Shown one piece after another: positions 41,255 to 42,683 of a stretch of DNA of 64,000 nucleotides. Made by a program: the position numbers and the translations under genes. The DNA comes from Bacteroidota bacterium (lineage in GTDB: Bacteria; Bacteroidota; Bacteroidia; Cytophagales; Cyclobacteriaceae): positions 62,001 to 126,000 of the forward strand of contig JAFDYX010000001.1 in NCBI GenBank assembly GCA_018267215.1. Reading direction: 5' to 3'. The notes below the pieces were generated by a model. That model saw only the letters and a program-made list of their open reading frames with translations, was not told the origin of the DNA and made no database searches. Every line of letters begins with the position of its first letter. The first letter of the stretch is position 1.

Positions 41255-41281
41255 CGCAGTCTCCTGTTAAGGGACTCTGCG
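41255..41281. repeat. palindromic repeat A, copy 2
   Basis: CGCAG pairs with CTGCG and the internal AGTC with GACT around CTGTTAAG; CCCATCCTTTT follows. It is about 870 bases from copy 1, on the other side of the DUF4468 gene, with CCATCCTTTT placed before copy 1 but after copy 2. Confidence 0.55.
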
Positions 41282-41315
41282 CCCATCCTTTTATAAACAA
41301 CGCGGAGCCAGTGTT

Positions 41316-41339
41316 ATTGTTGGTCGCCTGACCAACAAT
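41316..41339. repeat. REP-like hairpin, downstream of the RAYT gene
   Basis: Perfect stem ATTGTTGGTC / GACCAACAAT with loop GCCT, ending directly at the stop codon of the RAYT gene. The 22-base core is the exact reverse complement of the core of the hairpin at 41906-41931. Confidence 0.85.
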
Positions 41340-41340
41340 C

Positions 41341-41874
41341 CTAAATCTCCGAATGATGAGTAAGAAAACCAAATTCATCTACACCGTCTTCATAGAATCT
41401 TGCTGAACTATATTTATAATCTTCAGGCAGTTCAGCCAACTGCCAGTGAGGCTGGCAAGGATTTTCATGGAGATAGTCAAACTTCTGCTTAAAGAACCAT
41501 TCGTGAACCAGGTCAATGCTCATCGAGTTCCTTTTCCATACTTGATACTTTCTGTCTTTCAACCCTACGTAAATCTCTTCTAGAGCATCCTCACCTTTTT
41601 GCTCCCTCAACATACTCATTAACTCTTTTGCTGTAAACTTAAGAAAATCACGCTGAACCTCTTCGAGCTTAAATCCATTCTGAATCCTCCAAATGATGTG
41701 AATATGATTGGGCATAATAACAAAGGCACAAACTTTTATTTGAGCTTTCTTCACACGTTTAGTTAGTGCCTCAGTAATAATTTGTTTTGCCTCATTAGTT
41801 TCTAACAATTTTAGCCAATCATAACAAACGGCTGTAAAAAATTGAAGCGGGTTTTGATCAACGTGCACATCCAA
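41341..41874 (-). CDS. REP-associated tyrosine transposase (RAYT, Y1 HUH family)
   Basis: About 177 residues of a Y1_Tnp single-strand transposase. The HUH metal motif is in MPNHIHIIW and the catalytic tyrosine is probably in FDYLHENP; NPLQFFTAV near the N-terminus and VQRDFLKFTA are typical. These enzymes nick single-stranded DNA at hairpins and are thought to spread REP sequences. The start is unclear: only TTG (41874) or GTG (41868) is available before the family-typical N-terminus, so the original ATG may be lost. The gene is bracketed by inverted REP-like hairpins. Confidence 0.88.
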   Translation of the reverse strand: MDVHVDQNPLQFFTAVCYDWLKLLETNEAKQIITEALTKRVKKAQIKVCAFVIMPNHIHIIWRIQNGFKLEEVQRDFLKFTAKELMSMLREQKGEDALEEIYVGLKDRKYQVWKRNSMSIDLVHEWFFKQKFDYLHENPCQPHWQLAELPEDYKYSSARFYEDGVDEFGFLTHHSEI

Positions 41875-41889
41875 AAATACTTAACTGAT

Positions 41890-42603
41890 TCATACTATAA
41901 AATAGTGTTGTTGGTCAGGCGACCAACAACAACTTAGGTAGTTTCCCGAAACCGGGTTGTTGTACGAGTAGTGATAAGGTGTGTGGAACGGCATGGAGGA
42001 AGCCATCGGATCTACTTGCATCATCCGCCCCAGCACGGGGTCAAAGTTGCGGAACTCCAGGTCATAGACACCTGTCGTTGTATTCAATTCTGTACCCCCA
42101 TTCGCCAAAAAATTGTTCGGTGTGGCCGTGGTTCGTGTCCAGCTTGCCGGTGCCAGCATACCAAACGGATAATACTCGTTGGCTTGTAAAATGTTTGTCG
42201 GAGTGATCGTCACTTTAAAATCATCGAAGTAAACCCAGTTGCTGCTCTGGTCTTCGTAACTCAAATATACAAATACATAACCCGCCTCTTTTACTGTTAC
42301 GGTTGGGATACTTACGTACTGCTGCGAAAAGGCTCCGGTAGGTACTACGTTCCACCCTGCATTCACCACGTTATAATACTGGTCGAAGAGTATGTAGTTC
42401 AGGTAAGCGGCCGGGGCAGCATCCCCCTGGTTAGGCCCAACTCCTAAGCCGTTCAGCGCACTGTTCACACCATTGGTCTTGAGGCCGCCCACATCGGGCG
42501 CACCATTGACCAGTGCGCCTGTCACTGATGAGATAATTGAAGCAAGAGCAATGCTTGAGGTGCCATATCCGCTTGCAGATTCATAATAGCTCCAAACGCC
42601 CAT
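41890..42603 (-). pseudogene. truncated RHS-repeat protein remnant
   Basis: 237 residues of frame corresponding to the C-terminal part of a Bacteroidota RHS/DUF6443-type protein: a galactose-binding-like module (GYVFVYLSYEDQSSNWVYFD), ANEYYPFGML, then the RHS core YDLEFRNFDPVLGRMMQVDP and PYHYSYNNPV. The N-terminus is missing (frame closed by a TAG at 42628-42630, no repeats or signal), and the last 13 or so residues after GNYLS are read from the REP hairpin. No toxin domain remains. Not a functional gene. Confidence 0.85.
41906..41931. repeat. REP-like hairpin, upstream of the RAYT gene
   Basis: Perfect 11-base stem TGTTGTTGGTC / GACCAACAACA with loop AGGC. Its core is the exact reverse complement of the hairpin at 41316-41339. 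Confidence 0.85.
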
Positions 42604-42683
42604 ATCCTTTTTCGTTTGTTGGTGAACCTACTCGCCCACCTGCGCGCAACACCAAAGGCAAGGCGATTGTGTGTTATGTAATC
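42604..42683. other. junction between RHS remnant and coaX
   Basis: About 80 bases. Bases 42663-42683 belong to the duplicated coaX-end block. The rest continues the RHS frame for eight codons to a TAG and then has GC-rich sequence with no feature I recognise. Confidence 0.4.

Follow-up and report, generated by a model that had tools for sequence, protein, structure and literature searches.

RAYTs have been described as domesticated bacterial transposases, and the spread of REPs as poorly understood (PMC8266576). Duplications of RAYTs were already proposed for REPtron systems (PMC3686654). Among Bacteroidetes genes, Quentin et al. (2018, PMC6006769) described subclass 2.6 of TnpA-REP, with "atypical" flanking structures lacking GT[AG]G, and gave a HuH-Y distance of 58-67 for most TnpA-REP subclasses. 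In TIRtrons, the repeats are in some cases moderately abundant in the genome and in some cases doubly palindromic (PMC3733652).

The locus analysed here is, with a probability that we put at roughly 0.8, a REPtron of a Bacteroidota RAYT group, i.e. a gene for a Y1 HUH transposase lying between inverted foot-hairpins. It was found in a window of 64,000 nt, corresponding to positions 62001-126000 of contig C11 in a draft genome of 3.38 Mb and 35 contigs. The RAYT/TnpA-REP gene (41341..41874, reverse strand) encodes 177 aa when read from a TTG; its ORF is devoid of an ATG start, as the preliminary description had stated in allowing only a TTG or a GTG, and its reading frame is intact. The likely start is the GTG at 41868, which aligns by eye with the ATG of five of six relatives, the ATG of the sixth (L021) being one codon farther out. 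The left hairpin, 3′ of the gene (41316..41339, forward strand), has a 10-bp stem (ATTGTTGGTC) and a GCCT loop, and the right hairpin, 5′ of the gene (41906..41931, reverse strand), is its inverted copy, with an 11-bp stem (TGTTGTTGGTC) and an AGGC loop. We recovered the geometry reported in the preliminary description: the 22-nt cores (41317-41338 and 41908-41929) are exact reverse complements, the left hairpin is 1 nt from the RAYT stop codon and the right one is 31 nt upstream of the TTG, for which about 30 bases from the start had been given. The pattern TTGTTGGTNN{0,30}NACCAACAA occurred twice in the window, and 100 shuffles averaged 0.00 occurrences. On the outer side of each hairpin there is a GTT foot, at 41313..41315 (forward strand) and at 41931..41933 (reverse strand), the innermost base of the latter being able to pair as an 11th stem pair.

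The unit is flanked by a DUF4468 gene and by an ORF with an Rhs core domain (41890..42603, reverse strand; TIGR03696, E=3.9e-9), a neighbour outside the unit that runs into the right hairpin. Beyond the Rhs ORF lies a remnant end of another RAYT family with an imperfect hairpin (42609..42664, reverse strand), which matches the right end of an element on contig C27 of the same genome with 94.6% identity in an alignment of 56 columns. Between 41890 and 42664 the Rhs-core ORF is placed between the RAYT unit and this remnant, as if both breaks were at REP hairpins. A relative (L051, G023 C1 581000-600999) has an array of Rhs-core fragments together with hairpins of the window type, RAYT-like ORFs and small genes. 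A general association between Rhs and RAYTs was considered and dropped, since tblastn with the Rhs core of the window matched few of the loci compared, precisely the window with the overlapping L011/L012, L051, L030, L054, L052 and L025; within the set of 29 from L021 to L049, the matches were only L030 and L025. A separate imperfect hairpin (GCAGTCTCC...GGGACTCTGC, 41256-41282) adjoins the unit; a hairpin resembling it brackets another RAYT as an inverted pair in the relative G040 (L080), and its arm is also present in the relative G043.

The window protein was matched by Pfam PF01797 (Y1_Tnp, E=2.6e-5) and by NCBIfam REP_Tyr_transpos (E=1.1e-19), the latter with 70.8 bits, under the 80-bit cut-off of the family. 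In an alignment of 20 homologues, H57, H59, Y134, N138 and P139 were invariant. The top PDB match of the AF2 model (mean pLDDT 92.9) was 4er8, TnpA-REP with a REP hairpin (E=7.4e-9, TMq 0.64), with chains of ISDra2 and IS608 next, and in a profile search 4er8 was the sole match (E=3.1e-5). As regards the subclass, the HuH motif NHIH (residues 56-59) agrees with the NH[LIV]H of subclass 2.6, and the C-terminal SS of that subclass is present (S156 and S157, each conserved in 90% or more of the 20 homologues). The Y motif is YLHENP in the window and YIHNNP in the consensus of the 20 homologues, against YIH[QN]NP for subclass 2.6; the W motif is WR in the clade of the window and WQ in both the consensus and subclass 2.6. 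The distance between H57 and Y134 is 77 residues, against a subclass median of 82 aa. As in subclass 2.6, the flanking structures are without GT[AG]G, and three 21-nt variants of them, not the exact core, occur elsewhere in the genome; GTT or GCC stands in place of the classical 5′ GT[AG]G foot of subclasses 2.2, 2.4 and 2.5. By motifs and length, TnpA-REP subclass 2.6, which is Bertels group 5, appears to be the best fit for the window protein.

It is very improbable that the gene belongs instead to an insertion sequence of the IS200 type (TnpA class 1). Such an assignment could draw on the common Y1 fold, on the ISDra2 and IS608 chains that follow in the PDB list and on one relative with several copies of a whole element. 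The Y motif of class 1, however, is Y[IV]ENQ, whereas the YxxxNP motif of the window and its SS pair fit class 2; the NCBIfam match (below cut-off) carries the name REP_Tyr_transpos, and the best PDB match is a TnpA-REP. Moreover, the hairpins of IS200/IS605 elements generally have one polarity at both ends, whereas those of the window are exact inverted copies with feet outward, and such hairpins also occur single and in arrays.

The RAYT protein was present in 63 of 96 genomes, the window's own included. A relaxed palindrome, some long-loop matches of which may be unrelated, occurred in 45 of the 58 genomes of the genus, with a maximum of 35 per genome; the reversed-pattern control gave one match in each of four of these genomes and zero in the others. 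The preliminary description would have been refuted by a hairpin absent from the rest of the genome and from relatives. This is not the case: the exact core was found in six of the ten genomes searched, i.e. the own genome and G023 (5 copies), G043 (5), G041 (3), G044 (2) and G038 (1).

For the phylum we considered the best 80 of 301 confirmed relatives obtained by a scan of genome contigs, all of which are Bacteroidota save five MAGs of Ignavibacteria/Chlorobiota (by title). We considered as a pair any hairpins with shared arms at most 250 nt away on each side of the gene; as controls, 270 random placements of mock genes were used, five per locus, in the same loci of at least 6000 bases. Matched inverted hairpins were found at 62 of these 80 loci, a set that includes near-duplicates (L093/L094) and several locus pairs from the same genome, and at 0 of the 270 control placements. 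At the 18 loci in which the pair was absent, L133, L153 and L162 alone had less than 250 nt on one side. As few of the pair-less loci can be excused by short flanks, our confidence in the REPtron reading was set slightly lower. The pair-less loci include a near relative (L021/L092, in G038) whose downstream hairpin core is imperfect. In a wider set, the pair was found at 78 of 100 loci and was absent at 22. This set was composed of 71 loci from the phylum scan (nine recognised as belonging to the genus of the window were left out, and others of that genus may remain), 27 of the 29 loci L021-L049 (L025 and L044 were left out by hand), L004 and the window itself. A hairpin that abuts a stop codon might suggest an ordinary terminator, or an mRNA-stabilising structure, beside an unrelated gene; the matched inverted pairs seen at real and not at mock genes, the polarised loops and the feet on the outer side leave this explanation with almost no probability.

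In one region of the relative G030 (L050, C1 4048000-4067999) many hairpins, some of them loopless (TTGTTGGTCGACCAACAA), lie among small genes over about 11 kb. This genome had one weak RAYT match only (E=2.2e-6). From the list of ORFs, an integron-like reading of this cluster was considered.

The loop sets the polarity of each hairpin, and in the bracketing pair the same side is outward at both ends. We considered as foot the three bases preceding the 10-bp stem on this outer side. GTT was the outer foot in 33 of the 40 distinct hairpins of the window type (loops GCCT or TCCC), and never the inner one (0/40); GCC was the outer foot in 47 of the 53 hairpins of the other main type of the genus and the inner one in none (0/53). 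These counts are weighted by arrays, as L050 contributes 7 of the 40 and L037 contributes 12 of the 53. Among the loci left after nine recognised as belonging to the genus of the window were dropped, in which others of that genus may remain, 66 of 112 outer ends had GCC no more than 2 nt from the stem, versus 4 of 112 inner ends. It was at both ends in 26 of 56 loci; hence, the foot is not universal. The preliminary description had suggested looking for a conserved tetranucleotide next to the hairpins: a short conserved element is there, on the outer side, but it is GTT or GCC and not GT[AG]G. It sits where classical REPs carry their GTAG guide (PMC8266576), and we infer that the foot may act as a guide in the Bacteroidota group too. 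Among the matches listed in the literature search, no GCC or GTT foot in Bacteroidota was found.

We also compared the stems with a tree of the RAYTs. A quick tree was made from 71 proteins, after the removal of 7 rows with in-frame stops, and the stem labels were not set to one polarity. On it, the five loop-proximal stem bases required 26 changes for the left hairpin and 24 for the right one. When stem labels were shuffled (500 times each), the means were 40.4 and 37.7 and the minima 36 and 34, respectively. With the set of the window dropped (49 rows, in which loci of its genus other than the nine recognised ones may remain), there were 21 changes against a mean of 27.2 and a minimum of 24. 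The clade of five that includes the window, with GGTC stems and 4-nt loops, had an SH-aLRT of 99%. On this tree, then, the stems track the lineage of the transposase, a pattern in which coevolution and shared descent are not separable by the tree alone.

The preliminary description had proposed that many copies might be scattered in the genome and that the perfect stems suggested recent activity. Neither was borne out for the window copy: the 22-nt core occurred in its own genome at the two window sites only, with up to 3 mismatches allowed in an ungapped search, and a 16-nt core gave no site besides these two. A search with free loops returned 12 palindromes, of which five are of the window type (the two window hairpins and three 21-nt variants on contigs C10, C19 and C21). 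The remaining seven have 24-26 nt loops and are of the type that goes with another RAYT. Classical REPs usually exceed 100 copies per genome; with a perfect-stem pattern, which would miss diverged copies, we counted these 12 in the own genome and at most 35 in the 58 genomes of the genus. Three of the seven palindromes of the other type are within a 125-nt stretch that recurs unchanged at both ends of C27 and at the end of C17. This stretch common to contig ends looks like an assembly overlap, and the three palindromes may be partly one copy; the DNA preceding it at the end of C27 is unlike that at the end of C17, so that there are at least two left junctions. Besides the window gene, the own genome had five protein matches at four places. 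The elements of C27 and C13 align over 676 nt with 91% identity, a match that begins at the foot of one hairpin, 4 nt ahead of it, and stops where the other hairpin ends; the C13 copy looks broken, since it matches the protein in two overlapping pieces. The 4.3-kb contig C27 (L061) begins and ends with the same 125 nt, which are part of a RAYT element, and also carries a gene resembling a C10 peptidase. This contig could be a tandem unit, a circular unit or an assembly effect.

With an intact frame but a single core and a GTG or TTG start, the window copy may or may not be active at present. The single core and the lack of an ATG would also suit a static, domesticated REPtron, in which the RAYT is kept for a role in the host and the unit of the window is now immobile. 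The literature lends this some further weight, as RAYTs are called domesticated (PMC8266576) and class 2 genes are low-copy, with low identity between copies (PMC6006769). We regard it as possible but rather unlikely, since the DNA beside coaX is not conserved in near relatives and whole and gutted units are dispersed in some relatives. For the window site, homology with G001 and G052 covers coaX and the gene adjoining it and ends at coaX within the 1.5 kb compared; the contig of G032 ends at the coaX site, and no junction was readable in these three genomes.

As to the dispersed units, three whole-element copies occur in Ginsengibacter hankyongi (G111), two of them about 250 bp apart. These copies are 87% identical over 620 nt; homology stops 7-8 nt beyond the stems, and each copy has different flanks. 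In G043, one left end occurs eight times in seven stretches examined, six times before the last part of a RAYT gene and twice before other DNA. The six RAYT-bearing left ends are 90-98% identical over 105 nt, whereas the 40-nt flanks of all eight have 10-40% identity (ungapped); several of these ends sit at contig ends. One complete gutted unit, of 321 bp (L214 215-535), was found in the G043 stretches. Among the 22 hairpins of Mucilaginibacter gossypii (G098), a count by eye gave six oppositely oriented pairs with feet outward, at start-to-start distances of 55-109 nt, as in REPINs. Judging from these sequences, foot-to-foot units look mobile in some relatives.

Copies could also have been spread by homologous recombination between repeats rather than by a transposase. 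The hairpin arrays, the two neighbouring copies of G111 and a one-sided break at C13 are compatible with it, but six left ends of one gutted unit have a common edge and unrelated flanks, and the homology of whole elements ends just outside the hairpins; we judge it improbable, though less so than an origin as an IS200-type element. The gene at the C13 site was found in 2 of the 58 genomes of the genus, the own one included, its orthologue in G032 being a 312-aa ORF. A clean insertion is not claimed there, as the left flank alone aligns, within 3.3 kb of the G032 orthologue, and none of the sites compared gave a clean empty site with both sides.

The REPtron reading starts from what was observed, i.e. 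the layout, the conserved catalytic residues, the conservation of the foot, the stems that track the lineage and the units dispersed in some relatives. In this reading, a Y1 HUH transposase of the single-strand DNA kind is encoded between two inverted REP-like hairpins, each with its short foot outward; according to the mechanism that we propose, the enzyme would grip the folded hairpin, the foot would be the guide that chooses the cut site, and any segment ended by foot-hairpins might be moved, be it a whole element, a gutted derivative, a hairpin pair or a single hairpin. A broader proposal, for and against which we see even chances, is that group-5 RAYTs of Bacteroidota are self-contained mobile elements and not merely domesticated makers of REPs: anything enclosed by two inverted foot-hairpins, from the whole gene down to the gutted 321-bp unit, would move as one, and the cut site would be selected by a guide code that is not GTAG but GCC or GTT, changing with the loop-closing base pair. 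The locus and its relatives offer a set of guide variants, with two foot classes in one genus and feet other than GTAG, on which a model in which the foot selects the cut site is testable by swaps.

With respect to known systems, the closest likeness in motifs and length is with subclass 2.6 (PMC6006769, in the text available), which is likewise from Bacteroidota: the length is 177 versus a median of 179, NHIH fits NH[LIV]H, the SS pair is present, YLHENP is near YIH[QN]NP and the flanks, copies of which are possible elsewhere, are without GT[AG]G. The window differs in having WR and not WQ, and YLHENP is an inexact match; for the subclass as published, identity between copies in one genome is low and no foot motif is given in that text (PMC6006769). 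The same source already notes hairpins of this lineage in general terms; the preliminary description had not seen this hairpin described for the lineage. Its identification of the known layout, a RAYT with an inverted REP-like pair, was correct. TIRtrons are similar in that RAYT-like genes (TIRYTs) lie between inverted repeats other than GTAG (PMC3733652), but 20 of 26 TIRYTs were put in subclass 2.1 by Quentin et al. (PMC6006769), and their conserved motif is GGGGWSAS, with no GTT or GCC hairpin foot seen in the portion of the text available (PMC3733652). IS200/IS605 elements (IS608, ISDra2) share the HUH Y1 fold, the hairpin ends and the idea of a guide; they differ in that the hairpins here are inverted and occur also as single hairpins and arrays. 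With the REPIN/REPtron systems of Pseudomonas, Stenotrophomonas and E. coli the locus has in common a Y1 RAYT, inverted REPs, a 5′ foot and inverted doublets (PMC3686654, PMC8266576, PMC3116915). Here, however, the foot is GTT or GCC instead of GT[AG]G, a gutted derivative bears part of the RAYT, and hairpins number tens at most for the patterns used, against more than 100 copies for REPs (PMC2817692). Our results are best read as additions to an already known layout, namely a foot of two classes and signs that whole and gutted units have been dispersed.
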